Of a stretch of 64,000 nucleotides of DNA, positions 1 through 63,939 are shown piece after piece. Where the stretch lies: contig JABSSW010000030.1 of NCBI GenBank assembly GCA_018902385.1, forward strand, positions 62,001-126,000, written 5' to 3'. A program made the translations under genes and the position numbers. The notes beneath the pieces are model-generated. The model saw nothing but the letters and a program-made list of their open reading frames with translations. It was not told where the DNA came from and searched no databases. Source of the DNA: Physcia stellaris (lineage: Eukaryota > Ascomycota > Lecanoromycetes > Caliciales > Physciaceae). Numbering within the stretch: position 1 is the first letter of the stretch; every line of letters begins with the position of its first letter.

Positions 1-1540
1 GACTCAACATTTTGCAAAAAATTCAACAATTCAATCATTTTGATTTCAAAAAAATGTCAACAATTTATCATTCAATCGCGATCGATATCAAATCATTGAA
101 CGTCATTTGAACGTTGAATCTAATCAACAGATGTCATACAATGCATCATGATTTTGAAAGATCGAAAACGCTTTGAACGTTTTCAGATTTCAATTATATT
201 CGTTTATTCGTTCTGAAAATCATTTTGCAATTGACGAGTTCGCAATCGAGTTTTACGATCGTATGAATAACAAATTTCGTTTATCACACAAATCAGCGAA
301 AAAAATTTCGTTTTATACGTTTTGATCGATGATAGAGACATTTTACACGATTTTATGATGTGAAAGTCTCGCGATGATTTCGAATATCACAAAAACGATA
401 TCACGATCGATATATTTTCAAAAACGATTCGAAAACGTAAAAAAAACATTACTGAAATCATTGTTATGAAAATTAATCTTTCATTTACGAAAAAGCAATA
501 TATATTTTTTGCGAACGAATTACACGCAATTTACGTCATCATCATTTCGTCTGTTTTATCGACAATTTTTTCACGAATCTTCATCTCGTCAAAATTCTTT
601 TGATTTTCAATGTTAATATCTGTGACATCGTACGAAACAATGCAATAAATATATCACAAAAATTGAAAAAATAACTGTTGCAAAGAAGTCACAATTGAAT
701 TTAAAACAATGAATATATCGAATTATGAATGAATTGATCAATTGTTTCGTGTGAAAAAAATTTCGAACGAAATCACGTGATTTCATTTGTTATTATTGCA
801 TATATTTCACAAACAAACGAGCAAACATCACGAAAAATTCGATTCACGATCGATATGTTTTTCGTGACGATTTCAATAAAGTCGTCGTCAAACAACTCAT
901 TATTGCAATGCAATACAATTTTCATATGAATCATGAATCGTGCAAATCAATTTCGAAATGAATTGATGATATCACGATTTGAACAATTCAAATGAACGAA
1001 ACGAATAATCGAATACATAATGAATTCGATCAATACGAATGCATACATCGTTTGAAATCATTATCAATCACAGACGAATTTTGATCATCGAAATCGACGT
1101 GTATTTATTCAAAAATTGATTGATGAACTTTTACGAAATTCAGATATCATACATCAATCGTCAAAATGTGTCAAATCGACGTATTGTAAATGAAATAATT
1201 GTTCGATCAATTTTCACACGAAATTTCGAAAACGTCAAGCATTCAATTTCAAAAATGTCAATATACAACATCGTTCGAATCGTAAAACGTTTGATTATTG
1301 TATGACATGTAAAATGAATTTATGCGTGTCGTTTGAATGCTTCAAAATTTATCATGATTTGAAAAAATGATCATACGAATGCTTTGATCAATAAAAAGTT
1401 TGAAAATGTTTCGAAACATTTGAAAATGATTTAATGATCTGAAACGAACTTCGAATGTAATCATATTTCAATTATTGAATGTTTATATACTATCGAACTC
1501 CTTCACTGAATTATACACATATACACGTAAATTTGATGAA
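1..1540. other. AT-rich RIP-like mutated block (left part off window)
   Basis: Strongly AT-rich sequence in which GG and CC are almost absent, AG and CT are scarce, but CG, CA and TG remain common. No convincing coding frame survives; the only open frame of note (1120-1305) is low complexity. Normal composition returns abruptly at about 1550. I read this as the end of a transposon or repeat mutated by the same process as the blocks at 6.1-12.7 kb and 18.2-22.7 kb. The left limit lies outside the window, so no element ends can be named. Confidence 0.75.
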
Positions 1541-5719: not shown

Positions 5720-6834
5720 TCAAGAAATCAAGAATCTCCAAGTCATGATATTGCGCTCGAGCGCATGCTTGTCAAATTCATGACGAGATGCATGACGGAA
5801 ATGAATTGCTCGTAGATGCCGATGCAAGCCATTGTTCGATCCGAAAGTATCGCTGCAGATACGGCAGGCGTGAGAAAGACTTGAGACGGCTCGAAGAATA
5901 AGTGAAACAGATAATCGGGCAGTGAATTTGCAAGATGCGATCATTGATTGAAAGCGTGAGATACTCGGCATTTTGTATGAAGAAACGTTTGATATCTCTG
6001 AGATAAATAGGCGGGAAAAGATCGATGTTTTGTATGATAAAATGGCCGATTTCTCAAATCACTTGCTGAGAGTAAATTTGATTTTGGCGAAATTCGATTC
6101 CGCAAACGTATGTTGCTGAAAACTTTTCGAATTCGGCGTTTTCGAGCTCTGAGTAATCAACTTGTTCTGATTGATTACAGACCTGAAATAAGACGTGATC
6201 TTGAACTGACGAGAAATTCTTGAAGAGAATTTGATCTTCTTGATGTGTAATTGATCTGATTTCGTGCGTTTTTCAGCAAACATCTCGAACAGATTTTCGA
6301 TAATAAAATAAGATTTTTGATGTTTCGATGTTGATTTCTGAGAAAAATAGACGACGAAATAAACGAACAAGAAATTGTTGCAATTTTCAATGTTTTTGAT
6401 TTGATTTTTGATGTAAAAATTGAAAAACGTGAAAACTTTGATGCAATGATTGAACGTGAAACTATTTCGACTCAAAATATTGATTTTCTTGATGTTGCTA
6501 TTGATGTTGCAAATAAAATCATTGAAAATAAATTATCGAAAATCGAATTTGATTGATTAATAAATGATGTGAACATCAATGCTAATTCATTCGTTAATGA
6601 AAATGTTGCAAAAAATGTAAATATCGTGATCATTATTTTCGATGTTGATTTTGAAATTGTAAATGTTGCGAGTTCGCTTGATATGATTTTTGCAAATTCG
6701 TTTGATGTAATTATTGCGAACTCGATTGCGACAAACTTTTCGATTTTTTTCTGATGATGATTTTGAATATGTTGATGAAATTTGATGTTGTTAAAAAATT
6801 TCGCTGAACAACGTTTGCATGCAAATATCGTCAA
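5720..6834 (-). pseudogene. Fossil gag-like C2H2 zinc-finger region of element B
   Basis: Minus-strand remnant inside element B. One frame (5720-5971) carries a C2H2 finger, CRICSDTFGSNNGLHRHLRA followed by the last histidine. A second frame (6472-6834) carries another, CKRCSAKFFNNIKFHQHIQN. The region between (6059-6475) shares short blocks such as QQHTFAES with frames in elements C and D. C2H2-bearing gag-like proteins of this look are recurrent in ascomycete LTR elements; that is from memory. Nothing resembling reverse transcriptase or integrase is visible. It is broken in several places. Confidence 0.5.
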
Positions 6835-7390
6835 ACGAATTTTTTTTGTTTTTTTGCAATACGAATTTGTTCGATTTTTTGTTTTTGTTTTTGTTGTTGT
6901 TTTAAACGATATAAAATTTTTTGTTCGTTAAAACGAATTTGATTTCGAACAATAATTTGTTAATATTTTTCATAAATAAAATCGAATTGAAAATGCAAAT
7001 GATTGCAAAACACGTTCAAATTATTGAATATTTTTCGTTTTTATGATAATTTCGAATTAATTTATATTTTGATCGATTCATATAAAAATTTTTGAACGTT
7101 TTCGTCATTGATAATGATGATGTTTAAATCGATTTTTTTTTGAAATGTTGCAAAAATGATTTGACGTTTCTATAAATTTTGTGATTTTTGACAATGACGA
7201 AATTTCTCGCATGATACGTCGAGTCGACTTGTAAATTTGAATAAAGACAGAAATATCGACTGATCATGTTGAAAAAACGCGAAAAACTCGTGATAAATAT
7301 TGTGATGTATTTGAGTTGCGAAGAATTCGTTGTTGAATAGATATGTTGACGTCGAATGACTGAATCTTGAAAGAGAACTCGTGATATTTC

Positions 7391-7465
7391 TGATGCAATA
7401 AATGCTGATGCAATAAATGCTGATGCAATAAATGTTGATGCAATAGATGTTGATGCAATAAATGT
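7391..7465. repeat. 15-bp minisatellite, five copies
   Basis: Five tandem copies of a 15-base unit (TGATGCAATAAATGC and close variants) in the internal part of element B. Read on the minus strand they give a five-residue repeat (ASTFI/ASAFI type), so the array once lay in or near the gag-like frame. Confidence 0.8.
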
Positions 7466-7681
7466 TGATTGTTGCAAAACAATTGAAATTGTTATCGTCA
7501 AATCGTGATTGATAGCGTTTATCGTTTGCTCGAATTGAATGTTGCAAAACAATTGATGCAATTATCGTTTGCGAATTGAATGTTTCACAGAAACTAATTA
7601 TTGCATTGCAATTGAATGTTGCTCATGCTAATAAAACAGCGATAAAAATTGTCAATCGTTACTCGATGATGCTATCATTTG

Positions 7682-7859
7682 TGTTACGAACATGTCTGAA
7701 ATCTCGATTGAGTTTTATCTTATCAGCGAAAGTTCTGATGTGAATTAGTGCTGATTTGACACACATTTCTACTTCTGATCTTCGGTCATCGTGTACATAT
7801 TTGTTTTCTAGATCAAATATTCTCGTTATGTTATTTGTTTTCTAGACATGCGTCTTACA
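7682..7859 (+). repeat. LTR of element C (left copy)
   Basis: 178-bp terminal repeat, less mutated than its partner at 9432-9610. Given the plus-strand internal frame this is the 5' LTR. Confidence 0.75.
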
Positions 7860-9431
7860 TTATATTTGATTTTTATCGTGACGAACGATGTAAATTTCAC
7901 ACTCGCTATCGCAAACGATCAGCGAGTAAAAAGAAACAAAATCGTTCAATTCGTGACGATTGCACATTTTTAACACGAATTTTCAATCAACAATGACGAT
8001 GACGAAATCATTTTCACGTTTTCAACACAACAAATCTCTCGTACAAAATTAACGAAATTAATTGTTATTCGATCAAATTTTGTTTTTGTGAATTGCTCGT
8101 CGAAATACGCGAATAATTAAATAAAATCGTCAAATATGCTCGTAAAAATACGCGAATAATTAAAAAAAATCGTTAATTGTTCGCATGAATACGCGAGTTG
8201 AAACAAAATTCAATCGTTTGTAAAAATACGCGAACGTTTAAAAAAAAATCGTCAAAATGTGAAATTTTTTTGAAAATGATCACGAAACATGACGTCTTCG
8301 TGAATTGAATGAAAAATTTACATAAAACATTTTCAAATCAACGAAACGATTCAATTGCAAATTTTTTCGAAATCAATTAATCAATGAATTTGTTTGAACG
8401 ACATTTCAATCAACAGTCGATTTTTTTGTTCGTCGAAATCAATCGACATTCAATCAATTGTCGATTTTTTTTTCGAATTTTCGACATTTAATCAATAAAC
8501 GATTTTCATGTTTTTTCGAATCAATCAATTCATTTATTTTCGAATGATTTTTACAATAATCATCTTTTTGAAGCGTTGAAACATCGCTTGATAAAAAAAA
8601 AAATAAAAATCACACACAACAACAAATTCACATCAAATCATCAAATCAACAAACAATTTCAAAACATCAAACAAAAAATTTTCGTTTGATTCGTTTCGTT
8701 TCGCTTCGTTTGTTTCAATGTCTGTTTGTTTCAACGACATTCAGTGAATTCGTTACAACGACTAATGAATTTGCTTCAATGAAATTTTTAATGAATCGAT
8801 TAAAACGATTTCAAAACGTATGCGTTCGATTTTTTACATTTTCGCAATCAACATCAAAAGAAAATGAATTTATTACATACAACGATACGAAAACAAATGA
8901 CATGACGAGAAAAAATGAAAAACAACAATCAATATGAATTTGTCACGCAATCAATTCAATTCGTTTTTTTTACAAATTTTTGTTTGTTTGTTTGTCGTCA
9001 ATTCGTCATATTTTCAATATTTGCAATCAATCAGAACGCGTCGATTAATAAAAATTCGAAAAATTCAAATTCGAAAAATTTGAAACAACATACGTTCGCG
9101 AAATCGATATCGTTTTGTTGTTTTTGTTTTTGTTCTGCTCGAGAAATCGATCGTTTCATCATATTAATTTGCAAATATCTTTCGCATCGATCGAAATCAA
9201 AATTTTCATTCAAGATTTTCATTTTCGTGATTTTATATTTTTTGTTTTCGCATTTCTTTTTTGATTTTGCATTTATTTTTTCACATTTGTCGCATTTGCT
9301 TTGAAATTTTTTGTTTCAACGATGATCAAATTGATATTTGAATCATAATCAACGAATTTTTTCGCAATGTCGATCGATAAAAAAAATGATATATTCGTTT
9401 CGAAACGAAGTTTGAAAAAAGAAAAAAATAA

Positions 9432-9610
9432 TGTTACGAACATGTTTGAAATTTCGATTGAAATTTTATTTTATCAGCGAAAATTCTGATGTGAATTAAT
9501 GTTGATTTGACACACATTTTTATTTTTGATTTTCGATCATCGTGTACATATTTGCTTTTTAAATCAAATATTCTCGTTATGTTATCTGTTTTCTAGGCAT
9601 GCGTCTTACA
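9432..9610 (+). repeat. LTR of element C (right copy)
   Basis: 179-bp terminal repeat, the more AT-shifted partner of 7682-7859. It is followed directly by the target duplication ATTTG and the right LTR of element B. Confidence 0.75.
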
Positions 9611-9613
9611 ATT

Positions 9614-9774
9614 TGTTACGATAAAACGTATTGAATAATAATGTGATAAATAATGTAGTTGAATTTTTATCATCTAAAAGACAGAATGCGAAATATGAAT
9701 CAAACTGTCAAAACGTTAATTCGTTCTTGTCAAGATATTTTGATTTCAGTTCTATGTGAAGATTTATCGTAACA
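9614..9774 (-). repeat. LTR of element B (right copy)
   Basis: 161 bp, identical in length to 5435-5595 and alignable without gaps, but strongly AT-shifted. Followed by the target duplication AATTT. Confidence 0.8.
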
Positions 9775-9779
9775 AATTT

Positions 9780-10471
9780 CGAGTTGTTATGATAAAATAT
9801 CTTTGTATTTCACAATATTTTCAAAAATATTTCAAATTAAACGAACATTCGAATAATTCGTTGTTCGATAATCATTCACGTCAATCAAAATTCGATTGCA
9901 AAATCGTGCGATTCGATCGATTTTCACGCGAAAATGACATTCAAAATATTGTGTGTTCATTGATACGTGCGCATGCGCAAAAAATACTATTTATGTTTGA
10001 TTTATGCGTTTCAATTCAAAAAATTTTTCAAAATTTAAAATTGAATTTAACAAAATTTAAAATTGATTTTTCGAAATTAACGTATTTTTTTTGAAAAAAT
10101 TCGTCAAAAAACAAATTTTTTTCGAAAGTTTTGTATATTTGACAGATTTCGAATGTTAAAATATTTCGATATTTTTTCGAAATACTTGATTAGAACAAAT
10201 ATGTTAACATAAAAAACATATTAATATTGTACAGAACGCATTCTGCAAACTTTTCAGTCGTTCTTAAAATAATGTGCAAAATAAAATAATTTTAGCGACT
10301 TGACATCAAGATTTGTGACTTGCTGTTGATGATTGAAACTTTGACTAAGAATGAAATTTGCAATTTTTGAACAAATATCGAACGAATCGAATTCATCATC
10401 ACGAACTGAATTGTTTGTTGATTGATTCAGAAATTAAATATTCAATCTGATTTGTTTTTATTTGATTCAAT
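9780..10471. other. AT-rich sequence between two LTR elements
   Basis: About 690 bases of mutated AT-rich DNA between the target duplication of element B and that of element D. The frame at 9756-10094 overlaps an LTR and looks like chance. This may be a remnant of an older repeat into which both elements inserted. Confidence 0.5.
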
Positions 10472-10476
10472 TCTTT

Positions 10477-10628
10477 TGTAAAATTTCTGAATAAATAAAT
10501 CATTGATTGCATGATGTTCTATCTAATGTTAATTTACATGATTTCTAGCATTTAATGTCATTGAAATGCGTATTAATGATTAAATTCTTGACGATTTTTA
10601 ATTGATCATTCGATCATTCAATTTTACA
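10477..10628 (-). repeat. LTR of element D (left copy)
   Basis: 152-bp terminal repeat, AT-shifted, preceded by the target duplication TCTTT. Confidence 0.8.
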
Positions 10629-11162
10629 CATCTTTTTTAAAAAAATATTTGATATTTCATTCTATTTTTGATGTTGCATTTATGAATATGCGAATCGATC
10701 ATTTGATCGAATCATGCATTGATGCAAAAATCTCGTTTTCGACGTTTTCGCAATTTTTGTAATTCATGCGTTCTGATTGATCGAATTTCTTCGATGAAAA
10801 ATAAAAATGATGCGAATTTGTATGAAATCTCGTTGACGAATGTCAAAAATGTGCGAAAAAAAACGATGATTATGATGTTGTTGCAAATTTAATGATTTCG
10901 ATTTTTCAACAAACATGCGATGTAAATCATTCACAATCAAACAAAATTGCTTGATGAATTTTGACTGCATTTGAGCAAATTTCTGAAATGAAATAAATGA
11001 AAAAATAAACGAAACGTTCTTCAGCGTTTTTGATATAAATTTTGATGAAAATATCGAAAAACGTAAAAATTTTGATGAAACTATTGATCGTGAAACTATT
11101 TCTGTTCAAAATATCGATTTTCTTGATGTTGCTGCTGATGTAAACATTTTATTCTTGTTAAT

Positions 11163-11234
11163 AAATTTCATTTCTTCAGCGACAATAAACTTCATTTTTT
11201 CAACGACAATAAATTTCATTTCTTCAACGACAAT
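11163..11234. repeat. 24-bp tandem repeat, three copies
   Basis: Three tandem copies of a 24-base unit beginning AAATTTCATTTCTTCA. On the minus strand they read as an eight-residue repeat (IVVEEMKF type) within the gag-like frame of element D. Confidence 0.75.
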
Positions 11235-12687
11235 AGTTTCTTTTCGCACGATGATTGCGAAAATGCTCATTTTTTCAAATTTAAATTTATTATTTTCAAA
11301 AACGTAATGTGCATTTATTCTCGACACGAAAACAAAAAAATTTGTTAAATTTTTTTCGATATAAATGACGATATTTTGTATTGAAATGTACGTTTTTATT
11401 TTCAAAAATGTTGTTTGCAACGATATTGATCATGAAATCAAATACGTAACACACGTTCAATAATTTTATCGTGTTTTTGTTTGTAAAAATATTGACGTTG
11501 AAACGTATTCGATCATATGTTAAAATAAAATATAATTTCATGTTTGACATTATCGACAATTCGTTTGTACAATTTGATTTTTTTTAAAAACGTTGTTTTG
11601 TCGTTTTGTTAATTACGTGAATGTCGAAATTATAATTCAAAATTCATGAAAATCGAAAAAAATAATTTGATTTTATGACATCGACGTTGACGTGAAAAAC
11701 GACAAAAAATTTTACGATTTTTGTATTTTTGTTATCGTTTTTGTTTTGACGTTTTTTGTCAACAATAAATGTCGAATTGAATATCGTTTTTTTTTCGAGT
11801 TTTTTTCATGCGTATGTGTTGACGAAAAATTTCGATAAAAACGAAAAATTGTGTTTCGTGATTCGTTACGATGTTTAATTGAAATTGATATATTTCAACG
11901 AAAATAAATGCGATTTTGTCGATTGCGTGTAAAAAATCACGATACGCACGTTTGTTATCGATGATTTCAACTATTTTCGTTTGTTTAACGAAAATCAACA
12001 TTTTCAAATATTCGTTTAATCAAACATCGATGTTTTGACGATTGAATGAATTTTTGATCATGCGATTGTATTGTTGTTTCAATTTCAAATTTTTAATTAA
12101 ATCGATGAATGCAAAACGTGTTTTTAAAACGCGTAAAACGTTTCATGAATGAATTTCAACGAATTGAATAAAATTGAAATTTGTAATCGTTGTTGTATCA
12201 TAAATGTGATCGATTATTTTAGTCATGAATTGTTTCTGTTCTTTTCAATTTTGAAATTTCGTTTTGTATTTCGACGACGCGATTTTGTATCGAACATGTT
12301 TTTCGATAAAATTCGCATTTTGTTGTTCGTCAAAATTGAATTTTACGAATTCAAATTTGTTCGTTGATTTAATATTTTTGAATGAATCGATAAAATTTCA
12401 AATCGAATATTCGATAATTTTAATTCGTACGACTGATAATCACGCGTTTCAATTTTTGAAAAAATTCAATTTGAATTTTCGTTTCGTATTCGTCATCGTG
12501 CTGAACGAACGAATAAATAAAAAAATTCTTGATTGTTGTTGATTGTAAAAAATGTAAACACAAAAATGTTTTCGCGATGTTTTGATTTTTCGTGTTAATT
12601 TGTCGAAACAATCGAATGTTGAAAATATTGATAATCTAATAAATCACGTATTGAATGCAACAATTAAACGTGATTCGAATTCATAAT

Positions 12688-12839
12688 TGTAAAACTTCTG
12701 AATAAATAAATTATTGATTGCATGTTGTTCTATCGAGTGCTAATTTACATGATTTCTAGCTTCTGATGTCATTGGAGTGCGTATTAATGATTAAGCTCTT
12801 GGCGGCTTCTAATTGGTCACCCGGTCACCCAGTTCTACA
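12688..12839 (-). repeat. LTR of element D (right copy)
   Basis: 152-bp terminal repeat of near-normal composition, followed by the target duplication TCTTT and then host DNA. It marks the right limit of the AT-rich block. Confidence 0.8.
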
Positions 12840-17461: not shown

Positions 17462-18025
17462 GAAAATTCCGTCAGCTGAGACACTACTGCCAAGTAGACA
17501 GGAGAGGTCAGTGACACATTGAATCAGTGAGATGCGGAAGGCAAGAGGAGGCTTATACTTATCAGCATGTATGAGCTAAGATTAGGTTGGAAGGGTTCCT
17601 TAGTCCTTTCTGCTGAATTTTGAACCAAAGTACCTCACTCGGAGTGCGGAGCTGGGCTGCATTGATCCTCTTCAGCTTATAAACCTACACTTATAAGCCA
17701 TTTGTATTCACATTAGTCTTATTCAAGTAAAGGCAAAGTGTTCTGTGTTTGGGCAAAGTATGTACTAATCTTCACATGAATTGTTCGCCATTTATATGGA
17801 TCGAGCAAGCTACTTCGAATTGGTTGCTAATGAGCTCATTATTTATCGTCTTATCACTGCGTGAAGCTTTGACTCTGATCATCTTGGGAAGGCTCGTGAT
17901 GTACGTAAATTACATTATGATTAGTGTATTGAGATTCCACTCTTGTAGCTGCTCCTGAAACCAATAACTCCGACAAACCCGTAGTATGAACATCTATTAA
18001 CCATGACCCCGCGACATTGATGGAT
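17462..18025. other. Intergenic region
   Basis: About 560 bases between the APH-family gene and the second AT-rich block, normal composition. The small frame at 17749-17958 starts at a non-ATG codon and has no recognisable content. Confidence 0.5.
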
Positions 18026-18152
18026 AGCTAATGCTTCGTACTTCCTTCATTGCTATGTACAAAAACCTTGGTGTTTTGGGCCTGGCCGGCCTGTAGACTT
18101 CCTGCATGAGCGAAACAGCTCAACAGAGCAGCTTTCAGAACCTGATTATTTT
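18026..18152 (+). repeat. Left fringe repeat B, unmutated copy
   Basis: 127 bp that align without gaps to 18399-18525 at an offset of 373. The outer copy has normal composition; the inner has 32 transitions and no other difference. It begins AGCTAATGC. Confidence 0.9.
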
Positions 18153-18272
18153 CTCTGTCTTTGCGACTGAATTAAAGAACGAAAGCAGAAAAATCTCGAA
18201 TAAAAATGACAAACAAAGTCTCATAAAAAGATGAAAACGTCGAAAAAAATCAAAAAATGAATGAGCGAAACA

Positions 18273-18525
18273 AAAAAAAAAAAAAAATGAAAAATGAAAA
18301 AAATGAAACATTGATTTTCTATTTAACTAAAAAATCAATTTTTTCAAATTTTTTTCATTTCGTCATTTTTGCATTAGCATTCACGTTTAATTTGAACGAA
18401 TTAATGTTTCGTATTTTTTTCATTGCTATGTACAAAAATTTTGATGTTTTGAATTTGATCGATTTGTAAATTTTTTGCATGAACGAAACAATTCAACAAA
18501 ACAATTTTCAAAATTTGATTATTTT
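18273..18525 (+). repeat. Joined A'B' repeat, mutated copy
   Basis: The first half aligns to the right fringe (22690-22818, offset 4417) and the second half to the left fringe (18026-18152). At the joint, arms GCATTAGC (18371-18378) and, in the unmutated copy, GCTAATGC (18027-18034, matching 18400-18407) would form an 8-bp stem around a 21-base loop. Confidence 0.85.
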
Positions 18526-21500
18526 TCACAATTTCAAAACACGTCGAGAAACGACGTCGTCGTCTAAACAAAACGAAAAAAAAAACAATTCAATCGTTTT
18601 GATGATGACGCGATATTCGAAAAACGTAATTTTTGTTGATTTCGATATACAGCAAAAACGTTTCGAATTTTCATTTTTTTAAAAATTGAATTAAATCGTT
18701 CGAAACGTTTGCATTGCGAATTTCGATTGTCGCATCACGTCGAAAAAAATGTTTCGAATAATTGTCATCGTGTTTCAGATTTTCGATCGTTTTGCGTAGT
18801 ATTTTGATAACGAATTGAGCATTGAAAGTTTTTGATTTTTCGATTTGAAACAAAAAAACGTATTTCGAAATCGAAAAATGCAAAAACAAATGACGAAATG
18901 AAATTATCGCACAAACAATATCGTTCGTGATTGCAATAAATATCGAAATTTTTTTGCGAAATGAATCGATTTTCGAAACAAAAAACGTTAAAACGAAATG
19001 ATCGTCAAAAAAAATCATCGAAAAACGAATAACAAATCAATTGTCGAAATTGAATGTGCGATCAACATTTGATCATATAAATTTATTTATACGCAAAAAA
19101 TTTGCAAAAATCAAACAAAATGCGACGTGCAATGTAACATTTTTTTTGATGCGAATATCGAAAAATTGCAAAATTTTTAACAAAATATCACGAATAATCG
19201 TTTTGCGTTTACGTTTTTCGTTTTCGTCATACATACGTTTAATGTCGTTGATTTCGCGTTGTAACAAAAATTCATTGAAAACGTTAAAATCAAAATATTT
19301 TCGATCGACGCAGACGAAACGTAAATCAATAATATATGTTTTGATAATTTTCGATTTGAATTTTCGAAATTTCAAATTGTTTATTCATTCGACAATGCAA
19401 AATCATGTAAATGAAAACGTTTGAAATTTGTCAAAAACGCAAAATTTCACGTATAAATTGACGACAAAATCGTGAATTTTTCGAATGTTCGAAATCAAAT
19501 TTCATCACAAGAAACGAACGATCGTTTTATTCAATGAAATTTGAACATATCAGTAATTCGATGCGTCGACAATGAACGAAAAATCGAATTTTAGAATTGA
19601 TCATGATGAATTTGCAATTGAAAATATTCGTCAACAATTGTATCGTGCTCATCACGTGAAAGCAAATCAGCGAAATGATTAGATTTCGAATTTAATCACA
19701 TCATTTCAATCAGAATATCATGAAAAACGAACAGCATGATCACGTCACGAAAAAATGTCATTGTTGAATCACGTATCGTGTTTTTGTCGAATTTCGCACA
19801 AACGATTTGATTGTCGCAATGAATGACGATTTTGTTATTTTCGAAATGAAATAATCATTGACGTAACGCGTGCAATATCGTTCGCATTTTTTAATTTGAA
19901 TATTCAATTGTCGATTGCGAAAACGCGTTAAATAATGTCAACTGAAATTCTCGAGTGATTCATCATTAAAAACACGAAGTCAGAAATCGTTTATGTTTCA
20001 ATTATTCGAAGCGTTTGTTCAAATATGACTTGACGATCGTGAAAATACTTTTCGCAACATTTTGATATCGTTTTATCGTGATAAAAACGTTTGTCATCAA
20101 CGTAAATTTGCTCGCATGATTTCGTTAAATTTGCATGATTTATTGACGTTTCGAATGTGATCGCGAATTCGATACAGAAAAATGAAAAAGAATCGTTCAG
20201 AAATCACGACTTTTGCACAAAAAAATAGAAAATTCACGAAAGAATCGATTTGACGATGTGTGAAAAAATTTTCGATAAGAATTTCGTTGACGAATTTCAT
20301 TGTTTTCGTCAATTTAATTGAAAAAAATCGAATTTTCATGATTTCGTTATCGAGTTCGATGTTCAGAAATTCGAACTTTGTGTCAAATTCTCTTTTTTTC
20401 GCGTTTGTTTCGAAATCGAATTTGTTGCAAATATTTCGTCAAATGATTTTATATGATTCAAAATCGATGTGAAATTTCATGATGATAAAAAAATCGTCTA
20501 AATAATGAAAAACGATACGAAAATGATTTATTTTAACGAGAATTCAATGCAACGTTTTAGCAAATAAATCAAAAAAAAATGAAACGATTCGAAAATCGAA
20601 AAATAAAAATAATTTCATGTAAAATTCGTCGTTTCAACAAAAATCGAATAATCAACGATTCAATATGATTACAAAAATGTGTTTGAACGCGTTTGCGAAA
20701 TTTTTTTTGAACATTATAATATTTCGTTTTTGAAATATGAATATTGCAATGATTTCATCGAACGTGACGTATTTCAAAATTTTTGCATCGAATATAATGT
20801 TTTCATTGATTGAATCGTTTTTGAAATATGATAAATCGTAAATACGTTTTCAATCGTCGTCGTGTTTCGAAATCAAATTTAACGACGAACAAACGTAATG
20901 AATAAAAAAAACGTCACGCAATTTAATCAATCGATGAACATTCATTTGTTTGACGAAATCGACAATAAATATATCGAAAATTTCGTTGATCGAATTGTGA
21001 TTGTTGAAAATGCGAAATTTTTTATTATCGATATATTCGATGTTCGCGTCACGTTTAATAATGTCAAGCAATTTGTTAACGAAATTTCGATCAAAATGAT
21101 TTTTTAATCGAATATTTCATTTCGTTGTTTTCAATGACATTTTGATATCGAAATTAAAAACGTTTTCGAAAACGACGTTATACAAAAAATTTTTCGACGA
21201 TCACTTTATCGAAATCGACATGATCATACGAAATGAATAATTCGAAAAAAAAAAAAAATGAAAAAAAAAAAATGAACGAAAAAAAAAAATGATTAATCAT
21301 TTTGTGATTTTGTTGATGCATTCGAATTTGTCGTGATTTTTTTGTTGACATTTTGTACAAATATGTTTGAATTTGCAATTTTTTTCGCATCGAATATTGT
21401 TGTTGAACGCAACACAAACGTCGATGCGAATTGTAATACGTTTATTTTTGAATTCACGAAAAATGAAAACTGATTGATATTCAAACGTTTTTTTGCTTGA

Positions 21501-22188
21501 TTCAACAACGATTATATTTTTGAATTTTCACTCGATAAAATCGATTTTGATCAATCAATTGACGAAAACGTTTTGATCGATGCGAATGATTCGAATCAAA
21601 TTTTTTCGTGTCATGTCACGATCGACGATCACGTTTTGTAAAAATACGTTTTCATGATGCGAATGCGATATGCGTTCATAACGAAATTCAATTGATGTTG
21701 AATATTCGAATAAATAAATTCGAAAACAACGTTGCAATACATTTTCATCGTCATCAAAAAAAAAATGTTTTTGAAAAATTTTGAACGCGTATCGACAACG
21801 ATTTCGAATGCAATTCAAAAAAAAATGAATTTGAAAAAATTTTTGACATTCAAACGACAATGATAAACGTTTTGCAAAAATCGAAACGACACGTTGACAA
21901 ATGTTCGTTTCATTTTGAAATATTTCGAATCATGAATTATGTGTAAAAAATTCGTGCGAATTTCGATCGTTTGAACAGCGAACGAAACGACGAAATACGA
22001 ACTTGAAAAATGTGAAAAAAAAAACAACGAAAATAACGTACGTTGAATGAAAATGAATTCATTCAATTTTTTTGATATTTTTTTATTTTTTTTTGAAAAA
22101 TTATTTTTCGACGAAAATTTTTTTTTTTTGAACGAAATTTTCGTTATTTGAAAATTTTTCGCGTGCGCGTGATCGTCGAATTTGAAAT

Positions 22189-22225
22189 TCGTCGTCGTCG
22201 AATGCGTCGTCGTCGTCGTCGTCGA
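22189..22225. repeat. TCG trinucleotide microsatellite
   Basis: Two runs of GTC/TCG repeats separated by a short AATG interruption inside the AT-rich block. The unit contains C only before G and G only after C. It is therefore immune to a process that hits C before a pyrimidine, which explains how a GC-rich array survives here. Confidence 0.75.
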
Positions 22226-22689
22226 AATCGATGATTATAACGTTAAAATCGTTTTCGTTTTCGTTTTCAATTTGATTTTCGAAATAATCAAACGAAAAAA
22301 AAAAAATTCGAAAACGAACGTTACGAGAAATATTTCGAAATGAACGCGTTGAAATGAAACGAAAACGTGAAACAAATTTTTCAATTCGATTACGATTTTT
22401 TACGTCGAAAATGACACGTTTGAAAATTGTAAACGATTTGAATTTGAATTTGAATGTTTCGTTATCATTTTTTTTCTTGACGACGACATCATGATTTTTG
22501 TCAAAAATGAAAATGAATTTGATGTCGACGAGCATTATTGCGACGACGAAAAGTTCAACGAAATCGAATTTTAATTAAGTCGAGCGAAATATTACAGCAA
22601 AAAGTGTGCGAAAATCGAAAAATTGAAATATGCAACATCAAAAGTTGATGTAAAAATTTCTACAATTGATTTTTGCAGATGATTTGCAA

Positions 22690-22818
22690 AAGAAAAGAGA
22701 AAAATGAAAAATGAAAGAAATGAGACATTGATCTCTTATTTAATTAAAAGGTCAATCTTTTCAAGTTTCTTTCATTTCGTCATCTCTGCATTAGCACTCA
22801 CGTTTAGTCTGGACGAGC
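22690..22818 (+). repeat. Right fringe repeat A, unmutated copy
   Basis: About 129 bp of normal composition ending GGACGAGC, aligning to 18273-18401. Contains the inverted pair TGAAAGAAA / TTTCTTTCA and ends 71 bp from the stop of the next gene, so it may serve as that gene's 3' flank. Confidence 0.8.
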
Positions 22819-27859: not shown

Positions 27860-28374
27860 TATGAACACTCTCGATATCTCTCTACTCGTTGAATGTCGCA
27901 GATGCAGCTAAAGAGGGATCTATCAACTCAAATATTGGGTGAGGACGCAAAGAGGAGTAAAGATCTAGTGATGCTATACGAATAACACCATACACCAATT
28001 ACGTCAAGCTTAGACTGGCGTAGCAAGCGAAGCTGTAAGGACAAGGGGGCATCAACAAGGCAGGAGCGTTTTGATCGTTCGCGACGCCAATCAAGAAGCC
28101 CAAAGACTCGGTGCATTATCGGAAAGTTGTGCGATGGGCTTCCAAGATGGCGTGCTCTTGGCTAGTGGGAAACCCGAATACCTTATCCCTAAGGGAAACC
28201 CAATTCCCACCTACGAAAGCTCGCTGGTTTATCTTCCTGCACATGCACAATCCCAATCCCACATACTCCCTACCCCGCACCTCATTCTTATTAGCTTCTA
28301 CAACCACCCAAACAGATTCCCTATGCCCGGACTTCCCCAGCTCGGACCATCCTGATCCACCACCAAAAACAGTG
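27860..28374. promoter_or_regulatory. Shared divergent promoter region of two monooxygenase genes
   Basis: 515 bp between the starts of two flavin monooxygenase genes transcribed away from each other. A plus-strand frame crosses it but has no family content and joins the downstream gene only by read-through. I see no unambiguous TATA box or palindromic regulator site. Confidence 0.5.
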
Positions 28375-30185
28375 ATGGGCTCCACCTCCGACAAATCAGA
28401 CTCGCCACATCCTCCCACTCAATCTCACCACTATCCCAAGTCAAACATTACACTCAATGACCGTTACATTGATGAACCTCGCACATTGAGGGTAGCCGTT
28501 ATTGGGGGAGGACTGGCTGGCATTTTGGCTGGTATCTTGTTCCCCGCCAAGGTGCCACGAATTGAGTTAGTCATCTACGACAAGAATTCAGATCTTGTGA
28601 GTCAACCCAAGGTAAACACAACCGAAACATCTAATGGGCCAAGGGAGGTACTTGGTTCGAGAATGTTTATCCGGGAGTTCGGTGCGACATTCCAGCCCAT
28701 GTCTATCAGTCTACTTTCTCGCCCAACACTCAATGGTCGGAGCAGTTCGCTACAGGCTCCGAGATCCGGGAGTACTGGCAAAGCCTTGCCCGAAAATACA
28801 ATGTCTACGACAGATGCAAGCTGAGCACCAAGGTCGAAGAGCTAGCATGGGACGAGAAAGACTCGGTTTGGACATTACTGGTAAGAGACCTCAAAACTGA
28901 TGAAACAACTTCGGAGAAGGCGGATTTTGTCCTTCCAGCAATAGGACGGTTCAATGCTTGGAAACTCCCAGACATCCCTGGTATCTCCGAGTATAGAGGG
29001 CATCTTCGGCATGCCTCCAATTGGGATCCTTCACTTGATGTATCAGGTAAATCCGTAGCTGTAATTGGGAACGGAGCAAGTGGGATTCAGCTTGTCTCCA
29101 ATATTCAAAGGCTTGTCGGCCGTTTAGATCATTATGCAAGGAACAAGACTTGGATTGCAGCATCTTGGGCCGGGGACGAACGGACATTCGAGTCCCAACC
29201 GTTTACAGATGAACAAAAGCAATCGTTCGAGGATCCTCAGACTTACCTTGATTTCAGGAAGAAGCTAGAGGACAAATACTGGAGACGGTTTGGTGCGCTA
29301 TGGCGGGGATCAGCAGCCAACATGGAGGCCCAAAAAAGTTTCACCGAGAACATGAGGAAGCGGCTCAGCAAGAAGCCGGAGCTCTTAGATAAATTGATTC
29401 CTGACTTCTCTGCAAATTGCCGCCGGCCAACGCCAGGCCCAGGATATCTTGAGGCAATCACAGAAGATAACGTAAATTACATCCAAACGCCTATCAAGAG
29501 AATTACAGAAACTGGAATCGAGACAACGGATGGTACGACAAGAGCTGTAGATGCCATTCTCTGTGCCACTGGAGCGAATGTTGACATGGCACCTCCCTTT
29601 CCTATCCGCGCATATGGAGTTGACCTTGCAGCTGCTTGGAAATCTGACGGTGACTACACTTTTCCTTACACCTATTTTGGACTCGCCACACCGGGCTTTC
29701 CGAATCTCCTCTTTGTACACGGAGCTCACGGCACTGGCGCGTCGGGAACCGTCCCACAAGCTGTTGAGATCCAGTTGACCTATTACGCCAAAGTTTTACG
29801 CAAAGCTGCAAGGGAAGGAATCAGAACCATGACACCCTCGAAGAAGGCTGCCGATGATTTTCTGGATTACTCCGACGCCTTTTTCGCGAGGACCGTTCTG
29901 TCAGACAACTGTAGTTCATGGTATAACAGTGGACGGCCAGGTTCACGAATCCATGGGCTATGGCCGGGTAGTGGGATGCATATCACCGCGGTCCGTCGGG
30001 AGCCTCGCTGGGAAGACTGGGAATATGAGTATCTTTCGGAAAGCGGCAACAGGTTCGAATGGTTTCTAGGGAACGGCTGGACGAAGAAGGAGACAGACCC
30101 GAATTCGGAAGCAACATCATATCTAAAGCTACCGTCGCAAATTGACCTGCGCGACCTACACGAGAGCTGGTGGGACTTACCATGA
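28375..30185 (+). CDS. Baeyer-Villiger-type FAD/NADPH monooxygenase
   Basis: Two exons (28375-28596 and 28644-30185, 47-bp intron) encode 587 residues, normal for the family. FAD-binding VAVIGGGLAGI lies at about residues 41-50. NADPH-binding VIGNGASG is at about 214-221. The fingerprint YRGHLRHASNW (about 191-201) fits FxGxxxHxxxW with Tyr for Phe. GGTWFENVYPGVRCDIP follows the FAD site as expected. The C-terminal half continues with ILCATGANVD and the aromatic-rich WDWEYEYL-like region around 560. Such enzymes insert oxygen next to a carbonyl or oxidise heteroatoms. The frame extends upstream through a proline/histidine-rich stretch without family content, so the ATG at 28375 is preferred. 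It pairs head-to-head with the NtaA-type monooxygenase and is followed by a transporter, suggesting a small catabolic or secondary-metabolite unit. Confidence 0.88.
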
Positions 30186-60201: not shown

Positions 60202-63200
60202 CTAATCTTTGCGATACTCTCTCAGCATCCTTGCAATAACCGGATAGTGTTCATATTCGGCATATTCCGCAGCATCTTCGCAGCGGTCATAGAAACCCTC
60301 CATTTCATTGTCATTTTCGAGTAGGAGAGCTACAACATCCAAGCGACCATTTTCTGCAGCACCTTGCAAAGCTGTTCTGCCTTCAACATCCGATCCTGGG
60401 CTATTGATATCCGCTCCTGCGTCAAGGAGATATATAGCAACAGCTAAATGACCTTTAATTGAAGCTGCTTGTAGCGCTGTGACGCCTCCCTTTTCGCAAG
60501 GGGGTGCGTTGACGTCGGCCCCCTTTTGTAGCAGCATTCGAACGTGACGAAGGCTTCCCATGACTGCTGCTTGCTGGAGCGCAGTCATGCCACGAAATGG
60601 GGAAGCCGGAGCGTTAATGTCCGCACCAGCCTCTAGAATCAAATGGATGATCTCTTCGTTTCCCGATCTTATAGCAGCTTGGAGCGCTGTGACACCAATG
60701 ATTTCATTCGTCCTATAATGAGCATGTTGAACAGGGGGCGCATTGACATTGGCACCTCTGGCCAGCAGAAGTCGCACGTGGTCAGGATTTCCTGACATTG
60801 CAGCTAGCTGAAGGGGAGTGCGACAGTGATCGCCCGGAGAGAAGGTGTTGGTATCAGCACCAGCATCTAGTATCATGTGCACGATCGCATCATTTCTGCC
60901 ATAGATCGCGCTCGCTAAGGCAGTCTCGTCGTCGAGACTAAACCGCCAATTAACATTAGCACCTGACGTGAGTAAGATCCCTACTACGTCTTGCAGTCTC
61001 TTTCCGGCGGCATAGCCTAGTAAACTCTTAGCACTAAAATCCGAGTAGATGCGACTGTCGACGTTGGCCCCATAATCTATAAGAAGTTGAATCAGATCTG
61101 TCGAAGATTTTGTAGAGTTGAACCCATATATCGCAATCGTTAATGCACTGGATCCATCAATGCATCCAGAATACTCAGTCTTCAACGACGGCAAATACCG
61201 ACGCAATACGTCTTCATCAATGTGAAGAGCATCGCTAGCTTCCTCGAGTGTGACTCTTCCTTCTGGATCGTCAATTTGCATGTATTCAAAGCCATATCGA
61301 TGCATCAGCGTGACTAGCTCGCTATTGATTGGAAGTATCTCCTCGCGGTTGAGGCATACATTAAGATCCGGCCAGGCAGCGAGGTTTGGAAATGCACCGG
61401 CCTGCAACAAGAGTTGGGTAGCTTTAAAGCGATTATGTCGAACTGCTGTGTGAAGAGCAGTCGCTTCTGAACCCTCCGACCAGCATGCGTTGACGTCAGC
61501 ACCTGCACCAATTAATCTTCGGAGATATACTGTTGATTTCTGCATAGCTGCTACTTGTAACGGTGAACGACCATACTTGTTTGGTGCAGAGTTGACATCT
61601 AAGCCATTTTGTAGTAACAATTCGAACATTGGCAGATTATCCTGGCTTACTGCAACGGTAAGCGCAGAGACAGTGCCGAGAGGGGTATTTGTGTCGGCGC
61701 CCGCGAGAAGGACGAGATTGGCTATGGTTAAGCTACCACTGATTGCCGCTGCTTGAAGAGTAGTAACGCCAAACCTTTCCGCTGGTACGCCGTTGACGTT
61801 GGCACCTAGCTCTAGAAGGAATACCAAAGCCTCAACTTGCCCTTTCTCGGCTGCTGCTTGCAGAGCAGTCCTTCCACCAATTCGGCTAGGCGGAGCATCT
61901 ATGGTTTGGAGACGCCAAATATTTGAGACACCATTCAACAGAAGCTCCAAGAGATCGATGTTGCCATTCGCCGAGGCTGCCTGCACCGCCGTTTTCCCAA
62001 ATGGCCAGTCCGCAGGAGCATCGATGTTTGCTCCATAAGCGATCAGTGATATTGCCAAAGTGATATCGTCAACTTTCGCAGCAATCTGTAGTGGGGAATC
62101 TCCGCACTCATGACCGTCAACGGAAGCACCAGCGCTCATTAGAACCTCCATGAGCTCATAGTTCTTCATAAACACCGCCGTCTGCAAGGCCGTGTCTGTA
62201 AAATTACAGACAGCTGTTCTGGAGTCCGGACTCAATGAAGCAAAGTCCTTTAGGAACGACTGGCGTCGTTTGCTGAGCCGTGGGTCGGGGTTTGCCCTAG
62301 CATCCAGCAGAGCCTTGACCATCAACACATTCCCGTTCCGCGTGGCATGTACAAGAGGGCTGATGTACGCATTGTCTGTATCATCATTTGGCGGAAACAT
62401 GTGTGTATCATAATTTGGTTCAATAGATGACCCCAAGGGTGCATCTACATGGCACCCATTTGCTAAGAGCATGTGGACAATATCCATGTTATCGTTTTCT
62501 GCCGCAGCTTGTAGTGCCGTTCCCTCTGTTGGACTCCATTGGTCTATTGAAGCTCCGGCTTTCAAAAGCATCTGTACCACAATCTTGCAACCCGACTTGG
62601 CCGCAAGACCCAGTAATGATAGCCATTCGCGGTCAAACGCTGTAGCACAGGCGTTGACGTCTGCACCTAGCTCAAGCAATGATTGCACTATTTCACCAGA
62701 CTTCGCTATGCTGACTGCCAACTCGAGTGGTGTAATTTCATAGATGTGTCTTAGTCTAGGGTTGATTTCGGCTCCTCTATCAATTAGAAGTCTGACAAGC
62801 CGAACGCTGCCACATCCTATTGCGTTTCGAAGCGCACATTCGGAAAAAGTTCGGACATTGGCATCAGCGCCTACGGTCAAGAGGAAGTGTACTAAATCAA
62901 TATCATCGACCGTACATGCGTGAAGCAGAAGATTCGTTGCGAGAATCTCCGTAGTTGGTGTCTTGTACGAGAAGATGCTCTTGAGCACCCATCGCCGGCT
63001 GCTATCGGCGACCCATTCTAGGAATTGGTCCAAAGACTTGCCAAATAACGAGTTGTTTGTAGATAAGTATATTAGCGCCTGAACAAGCTCAAAGCCAGTC
63101 GAAAGGTTGGAAAGTGCTGTGGTCTCCTGGCCCATAGATTTTTGGCTCCTGTCCAAATCAGTCGTCAACATTGCCATCATCGAAGGAAGGGTTGGAGCTC

Positions 63201-63939
63201 TTGGCAAAGTGCCGCATTTGACTTGGGAAACGAAAACGTCCCAGGGACAAGCTTTCAAGGAAGTGTAGGCCATATCTACGGATTTGGTGTGGATTGAGAT
63301 TCCTGGTGTCCATGTGTCGCTTTCAGGGACTGTGAGGGATAACGCTACCCACAGCAAGGGTAGCATCGACTTCCAGCTGCTTTTGAAACCTGAACCATGG
63401 GATGTTTTGGAGACTAATCCTGCATAAGCGTTGTTCCGCCGGAGTACAGATGGCAATGTCTGATGGCGTCGCCGGGCTGGCGGCTGTGGTAAATATTAAT
63501 CTGAATCGTTCAACCTACAAGGGGGACAAGAGAGCGATCACCTGTCTTAGAATACTCGTCCCATATCGACTGGGTGTACCGAGAGATCTCTTTTCTCACC
63601 TTTTTCTCCGGGATGATGGTGCCATTGATATAGATCGCACTATCCTTGCCATTCAATTTACGCTTTCGAACTTTGTGGGCAACAATTGCCCAATTCTTAC
63701 TAGTACTATTCTTTGATAGACCCCACTTCTTGAAGCGCCGGAAATACTGCTCCTTGCTGACACAATTCAGATAGTGTTTGGAAGACACCCAGACTGCATT
63801 ACCTTGCACGAAAACCATGACGGTTTGCCATCGCTGTCATGACATCCTCACGCTTTAGATCATCTTTGACATATAATCGTTCGATCTCCACTTTATGTCT
63901 CTCCCATTCGGCGTCAGATATTCTTTTGCCGGACGACAT
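60202..63939 (-). CDS. Clr5-domain ankyrin repeat protein, 1195 residues
   Basis: Four exons, in gene order 63803-63939, 63542-63756, 63349-63483 and 60202-63302, with GT-AG introns of 46, 58 and 46 bp give 1195 residues with consistent phases. The N-terminus is a Clr5 domain: ISDAEWERHKVEIERLYVKD, KREDVMTAMANRHGF, then across the first intron SKEQYFRRFKKWGLSKN. A linker (ATPSDIAICTPAEQ) and a helical segment follow. From about residue 270 to the end I count about 22 ankyrin repeats (TALQAAAENDNMDIVHMLL, TALQAAIRSGNEEIIHLIL, TALQQAAVMGSLRHVRMLL and similar). Clr5-ankyrin proteins are common in Pezizomycotina; the Clr5 part is thought to bind DNA or protein and the ankyrin part to recognise partners. 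The third intron removes an apparent frame change, and without it the protein would seem to start downstream. Confidence 0.88.

Follow-up and report, generated by a model that had tools for sequence, protein, structure and literature searches.

In the window, meaning the whole 64,000-nucleotide stretch of DNA analysed here (contig C30, positions 62001–126000, of the 44.0-Mb, 147-contig Physcia stellaris genome), two copies of a 127-bp sequence differ only by C-to-T changes, on one strand or the other, at CpC and CpT dinucleotides (CpY), CpA and CpG (CpR) being left intact. The pair raises the question of whether repeats in this genome are mutated by a RIP-like process with an unusual target rule. 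Physcia, a genus that forms lichens, belongs to the Physciaceae (Caliciales). According to the P. stellaris genome paper, the assembly comprises 184 scaffolds totalling 46.57 Mb, with an N50 of 594.86 kb at the scaffold level and 43.3% GC; a RIP analysis was not found in the available text of that paper (PMC7513301). The relevant parts of the window are the following (window positions, no strand assigned).

18026..18152: outer 127-bp copy at the repeat end, spared and used as the reference; it keeps all 33 CpY sites
18399..18525: inner 127-bp copy, in which CpC/CpT to TpC/TpT change is saturated on both strands
18283..18370: imperfect palindrome (about 88 bp) within the end of the repeat, matching its own reverse complement at 80% (query 258–345)
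17600..18020: single-copy, unmutated flank directly outside the repeat; the genome search returned the self-match only
18200..22650: AT-rich island bearing the mutations, with a GC of about 0.28; CC 0.0%, CT 0.75%, CA 5.9%, CG 7.5% (dinucleotide counts over 18301–22700)
6200..12750: second mutated AT-rich island, GC 0.27; CC 0.09%, CT 1.65%
1..1500: third mutated AT-rich island; CC 0.0%, CT 1.4% over 1–1000
28000..28600: control, normal single-copy DNA; self-match only in the genome search

A recount of the gapless 127-bp alignment between 18026–18152 and 18399–18525 reproduced the coordinates and the 32 differences given by the sequence-only reading that drew attention to the pair. Nineteen are C>T (12 at CpT, 7 at CpC) and 13 are G>A (8 at ApG, 5 at GpG), all of them at CpY on one strand or the other, and a single eligible site escaped (32/33 CpY changed, against 0/25 CpR and 0/69 A/T; Fisher P = 1.5 × 10−15). 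Of the TpY/RpA sites in the mutated copy, 36 have the same letters in the other copy, and 32 correspond to C or G. The reversed direction (T>C before Y) was rejected, since it would leave more than half of its sites untouched in the pair; the direction is therefore C>T. The contrast between a normal and a mutated copy held, but the two are not separate insertions: they are two 127-bp repeats within one element end, of which the outer was spared and the inner mutated. Complete matches of the family start at 18026 or a few bases away, and the repeat end is present at about 40 places among the matches listed (40 of 126 candidates scored). Many of the listed repeat copies also show opposite-strand matches. 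The repeat element is left without a name because a Pfam scan of the window's frames, with TGA read as Trp, gave no transposon domain (four frames at 0.001 and five with E values up to 1). The scan did give a weak match to DUF2603, below its cut-off, and an Rfam scan of the window yielded nothing reaching the gathering threshold. An open frame of 1084 codons at 60202–63456 encodes an ankyrin-repeat protein.

The three islands of the window carry the same signature. CC and CT make up 0.0–0.09% and 0.75–1.65% of their dinucleotides, compared with 5.3–6.3% and 6.5–6.7% in normal DNA, while CA (5.9–7.1% vs 6.8–7.1%) and CG (5.3–7.5% vs 5.0–5.4%) are retained. The observed/expected ratio of CpG in these islands is 2.8–3.7; among the loci examined, the bin of lowest GC, which holds two windows only, gives 5.8. 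Five segments were compared with the whole genome. All three taken from islands (200–800, 8300–8900 and 18026–18525) were multi-copy, and both taken from normal DNA (17600–18020 and 28000–28600) were single-copy. For segment 8300–8900, 40 of the 62 candidates were scored and at least 39 places besides its own matched, and segment 200–800 had many further matches, the full-length ones being 80–94% identical (40 of 47 scored). In the five segments, mutation was thus confined to repeated DNA, as it is in RIP.

At several element ends the edge of the repeat is spared. The density of CpY per 50 bp is 12–15 at 18050–18149, 8 at 18150, 3 at 18200 and 0–2 beyond, so that in the window the drop lies about 130–180 bp in from the end of the repeat. 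The outer copy was less mutated than the inner one at eight element ends that border on DNA of normal GC (GC profiles read by eye). Changed CpY in the outer and inner copies, respectively, numbered 0/33 and 30/31 in the window, 10/32 and 31/31 in L009, 11/33 and 30/30 in L010, 1/33 and 22/30 in L011, 10/33 and 31/31 in L012, 21/31 and 31/31 in L013, 2/33 and 20/30 in L016, and 22/31 and 30/31 in L021. Farther from normal DNA (L014, L015, L017, L018 and L019), 25–31 of 31 sites were mutated in the outer copies; in L023, 17/31 outer and 16/31 inner sites were changed. Some repeats show little or no mutation. In copy L022 just 5/33 CpY sites were changed, and two reverse-transcriptase copies of 3.5 kb (L040 and L041, on contigs C5 and C12; GC 0.52 and 0.53) are unmutated and retain open frames of 1024 and 1151 codons. 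When L040 and L041 were compared with each other, they showed ordinary substitutions and no CpY excess. Since these copies lack the signature, either the process is incomplete or they escape it.

To what extent the rule holds beyond the pair was assessed by tabulating dinucleotide changes in repeat pairs among the fetched loci. From an all-against-all comparison, 25 pairs were retained that had at least 250 columns, a query GC of at least 0.40 and a query GC 0.07 above that of the partner; these pairs are not independent. In 25/25 pairs, CpC and CpT were converted more often than CpA and CpG; the excess ranged from about 1.5-fold where the partners were divergent to over 15-fold where they were close. 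Over 47.6 kb of alignment, 4843/5523 CpC (88%), 4629/6111 CpT (76%), 694/5953 CpA (12%) and 539/5526 CpG (10%) were converted. These data support the earlier proposal of an enzyme preference close to the opposite of that of classical RIP; mainly CpA-to-TpA change, which would have spoken against it, was not what the other pairs displayed. In divergent pairs, CpA and CpG stood at 18–33% beside 14–20% transversions and the CpY excess fell to 1.5–3-fold, and where the partners did not differ in GC, as in L039/L041, there was no CpY excess. Twenty further loci on 18 contigs, picked for carrying this repeat end, contain AT-rich parts with almost no CpC, little CpT, and CpA and CpG kept. L022, a single 250-bp stretch, is off this trend (CC 1.8%, CT 6.4%), and L011, L016, L023 and L027 are intermediate (CT 2.1–3.3%). 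In segments of 30% GC or less, the density of CpC triplets was 0.001–0.006 of normal and that of CpT triplets 0.006–0.25, values to which changes of flanking bases also contribute.

A comparison with the spared reference copy gave a similar picture. In alignments of at least 90 columns (29 rows, one being the reference itself, from 14 of the 20 loci and the window), the 28 comparisons showed loss of 265/335 CpC, 361/538 CpT, 50/531 CpA and 7/168 CpG. L017, L019, L021 and L023 account for 41 of the 50 CpA losses, which may reflect a slower process at CpA or older decay. L019 with its surroundings has 21% GC. The islands sampled are a non-random set (the window, loci with this repeat, and reverse-transcriptase matches), and within this reach the hypermutation rule extends beyond the local 127-bp pair.

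The cleanest evidence on the tempo of the process comes from L039 and L056, which lie on contigs C52 and C55 and belong to the same reverse-transcriptase family. In their alignment of 3477 columns, 437/439 CpC, 452/463 CpT, 26/442 CpA and 0/409 CpG were converted, that is, 98–99.5% of CpY; the 915 transitions (388 C>T and 527 G>A, on both strands) stand against 2 other substitutions. As in RIP, the changes are C:G to T:A transitions on both strands; the CpA preference of RIP is absent. Because this pair approached saturation before anything else changed, the process is acute hypermutation rather than slow decay. The alternative is that repeats carry ordinary CpY methylation, for example by DIM-2, and decay by slow spontaneous deamination without any active mutator. 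DIM-2 is indeed present in this genome, and most relics carry further substitutions, as expected if many copies are old. However, both L039/L056, with 2 other substitutions in 3.5 kb, and the 127-bp pair, with no change outside CpY, run counter to it, since slow deamination would leave time for background substitutions to build up. The near-absence of other substitutions in the youngest pair led us to reject slow decay as the main cause, and we consider it unlikely.

The sequence context of the converted sites was examined in nine of ten relics paired with L039 (L043 left out), sites that showed a third base being skipped. Reverse transitions relative to L039 amounted to 1.6–2.0% in 8 of the 10 relics and to 11.7% in L043. 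The 5′ base had little effect at CpC and CpT, where conversion ranged across 5′ bases from 0.958 to 0.983 and from 0.820 to 0.893, respectively; at CpG the range was from 0.009 to 0.066, and CCC (0.913) was slightly below other CpC. In L039/L056, the CpA conversions favored CpApY (21/185) over CpApR (5/256; P = 4.5 × 10−5, computed with 258), and pooling of nine related copies gave 177/1497 for CAY and 88/2037 for CAR, a preference hinting that the second base on the 3′ side is read by the enzyme as well. At CpC and CpT, it is the 3′ neighbor that decides, which fits a methyltransferase-type reader better than a deaminase of the AID/APOBEC type. AID/APOBEC enzymes read their context from the 5′ side. 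A search for deaminases, which the sequence-only reading had recommended together with a search for RID and DIM-2, was positive in part: three loci matched above the cut-off, and genome searches for NAD1 and SNAD4 gave no match, with weak controls (the NAD1 control was detected nowhere and the SNAD4 control only below the cut-off).

C38:375945, C34:399643 and C17:41218 (L033–L035): matches to the OTT_1508-like deaminase family (PF14441)

These three loci favor the idea that a cytosine deaminase, either of the AID/APOBEC type or of a bacterial-toxin type such as OTT_1508-like proteins, attacks the repeats. The decisive 3′ base and the small influence of the 5′ base at CpC and CpT argue against it, and we judge it less probable still than slow deamination.

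The rule also leaves a trace in coding sequence. A CpY rule can create just one kind of nonsense codon, TGA, which it makes from TGG. Stops in the reverse-transcriptase matches comprised 250 TGA, 33 TAA and 3 TAG (250/286 TGA; 150 of 527 candidates scored, ten of the scored matches having no stops), and a hand count in ten DDE_1 transposase matches gave 44 TGA and 3 TAA. When CpY saturation of normal DNA was simulated, GC fell to 0.244 and only TGA stops were produced, whereas a CpA rule gave a GC of 0.347 and TAA/TAG stops. In 4018 codons, the CpY rule generated 63 nonsense codons, from Trp codons only, against 207 for the CpA rule; such a process would therefore disable genes differently, with about a third of the stops. 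L056, with a GC of 0.24, lies near the simulated CpY floor. Of the 379 AT-rich windows of 250 bp, 17 had a GC below 20%, under the pure-CpY floor, and L019 holds 8 of these. Given these sub-20% windows and the concentration of CpA losses in four loci, the CpY process may be joined by another, slower one, or the starting DNA may have been AT-rich. As had been anticipated, standard RIP indices miss the signature: L056 and two window islands had a TpA/ApT of 0.35–0.42, a (CpA+TpG)/(ApC+GpT) of 1.27–1.56 and a composite index of about −1, none of these three mutated stretches being scored as RIP with thresholds of at least 0.89 for TpA/ApT and at most 1.03 for the substrate index (PMC2621366, where the available text prints the substrate criterion with other dinucleotides). 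Surveys that rely on such indices can consequently call heavily mutated DNA RIP-free.

The genome search for candidate enzymes showed that RID and DIM-2 are both encoded, along with a further gene of the RID class. The cytosine methylase family (PF00145) was matched at three loci, on contigs C3, C5 and C6. The C3 gene is DIM-2-like, with an ENV motif, a DUF7893 domain and a BAH match below the cut-off. The C5 gene, which has an EQT motif and falls inside the Lecanoromycete RIDs in the tree, is RID; a RID gene, expected of a RIP-competent genome, is thus encoded. The C6 gene is listed below.

C6:790900–792600 (L029): second class-I methyltransferase gene, 513 residues once two introns are removed, EET motif

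In a tree made by a quick method from 75 hand-chosen rows (73 of them from 231 proteins), with several long branches and unsure deep forks, the C6 protein grouped with Heterodermia and unlabelled (metagenomic) proteins, Heterodermia being the only named organism of this clade among the best 120 of 2824 hits. At an unresolved fork with a support of 92, the clade joins the Eurotiomycete enzymes, Cirrosporium and Pyrenula. Six columns were flagged in which the C6 clade or RID departs from the rest: three near-uniform ones, named here, two mixed ones, and one that is a gap in the C6 clade. After the catalytic loop, the C6 clade has F instead of D in 9/10 rows (Y in one) and K instead of N in 8/10, and in the target-recognition part it has A instead of T in all 4 rows with a letter; in 55 other rows, D, N and T are 96, 98 and 91% conserved. 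The neighbor clade has the same substitutions. Because these residues are changed in the C6 clade and kept in the Physcia RID, which retains D, N and T, the C6 enzyme is, as a lead, the more likely bearer of the new rule. Tentatively, C6 might even be a dedicated repeat mutator in which the RIP rule was inverted to CpY, with RID either displaced or retained for some minor activity at CpA.

Alternatively, DIM-2, and not a class-I enzyme, could drive a RIP-like process with a CpY preference. DIM-2 is encoded here, and according to the available text of a Neurospora study, genomic repeats can mutate without RID, heterochromatic ones additionally needing DIM-2 (PMC11969663); we nevertheless place this option below the deaminase in probability. 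UV damage in the exposed lichen, for which CpC and CpT would both be suitable as dipyrimidines, can be set aside: UV causes C-to-T changes at dipyrimidines, with all of them mutated as its signature, but TCA (0.072) and TCG (0.033), dipyrimidines too, are spared compared with TCC (0.976) and TCT (0.893), which refutes it, and the adjoining single-copy DNA is untouched. An assembly or sequencing artefact is equally negligible, even though repeats are hard to assemble, given that the rule is seen in loci on 18 contigs and in several alignable reverse-transcriptase sets, that it predicts the type of stop codon in 150 scored reverse-transcriptase matches, and that, according to the available text of the genome paper, Nanopore and Illumina reads came from an axenic culture grown from ascospores (PMC7513301).

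As a whole, this information favors, with a probability of about 0.72, a RIP-like defence driven by a class-I (RID/Masc1/DmtA-type) methyltransferase of this genome with a re-specified target rule. The process works like RIP, but by its treatment of CpA it is not canonical RIP. Long repeated DNA would be recognized by homology and hypermutated from C to T on both strands by an enzyme that presumably reads the 3′ neighbor as a pyrimidine, the order of conversion being CpC, then CpT, far ahead of CpA (mostly CpApY) and CpG. This rule may be set by the C6 paralog or by a RID with altered specificity; the enzyme assignment is inferred from the presence of the genes and from the residue differences. 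RIP depends on RID and takes place in the premeiotic dikaryotic stage. The Physcia process would likewise act in the sexual phase, as in Neurospora. On the re-specified class-I reading, the question of what sets the choice of RIP target becomes directly testable by swapping the recognition parts of class-I methyltransferases.

How far this rule departs from known systems can be judged from the available text of several studies. A survey of 1,239 fungi describes a CpA preference as common to RIP-like defences (PMC12543289). CpT is a known target: RIPCAL found CpT overshadowing CpA in Neurospora Tad1, and CpT also in Stagonospora (PMC2621366), in another survey, CpT and ApG forms dominated the alignments of the control fungi (PMC7882544), and a study of rDNA saw CpA prevail, CpT being more frequent in Neurospora (PMC5555474). 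In Monilinia, CpC-to-TpT double changes accompany classical CpA changes (PMC8959702). In Botrytis, Sclerotinia and Magnaporthe, CpA is listed with CpT in every tabulated strain, and CpC is absent from the available text (PMC4352252); these fungi resemble Physcia in targeting CpT and in having a RID/Masc1-class enzyme, but differ in that in Physcia CpC is the most favored target and CpA is left nearly intact. A rule limited to CpC and CpT, with CpC preferred and CpA nearly spared, had no precedent in the literature searched. Targeting of CpT by itself is thus already known, and the CpC preference with CpA nearly spared is the part that appears to be new, as it was not found in print.

The lichen fungus Cladonia rangiformis, also a member of the Lecanoromycetes, shares AT-rich TE compartments and the presence of RID and DIM-2, but the GC distribution of its mutated windows has its peak near 16% (PMC12542154). 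Since this peak lies under the 24% CpY floor simulated on Physcia DNA, the rule in C. rangiformis is probably wider than CpY; the words "dinucleotide", "CpA" and "CpT" were not found in the available main text of that paper (PMC12542154). The Eurotiomycete DmtA/Masc1 branch, which the C6 gene joins with Cirrosporium and Pyrenula in the unresolved fork, differs at the named positions, where the C6 group carries F in place of D, mostly K in place of N, and A in place of T. The closest functional parallel is RIP of Neurospora crassa, with which the Physcia process has in common C-to-T change on both strands of repeats, near saturation, sharp tracts, and RID and DIM-2 genes. The order of targets is CpA>CpT>CpG>CpC in Neurospora, and in T. 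reesei CpA~CpG stands ahead of CpT>CpC (available text of PMC5496416). The Physcia order, CpC>CpT>>CpA>CpG, is nearly inverted with respect to Neurospora, and the RIP indices point the opposite way. Thus, CpC, the least used target in Neurospora, is the best one here and CpA is nearly spared, showing that a near-complete change of the target rule is possible.
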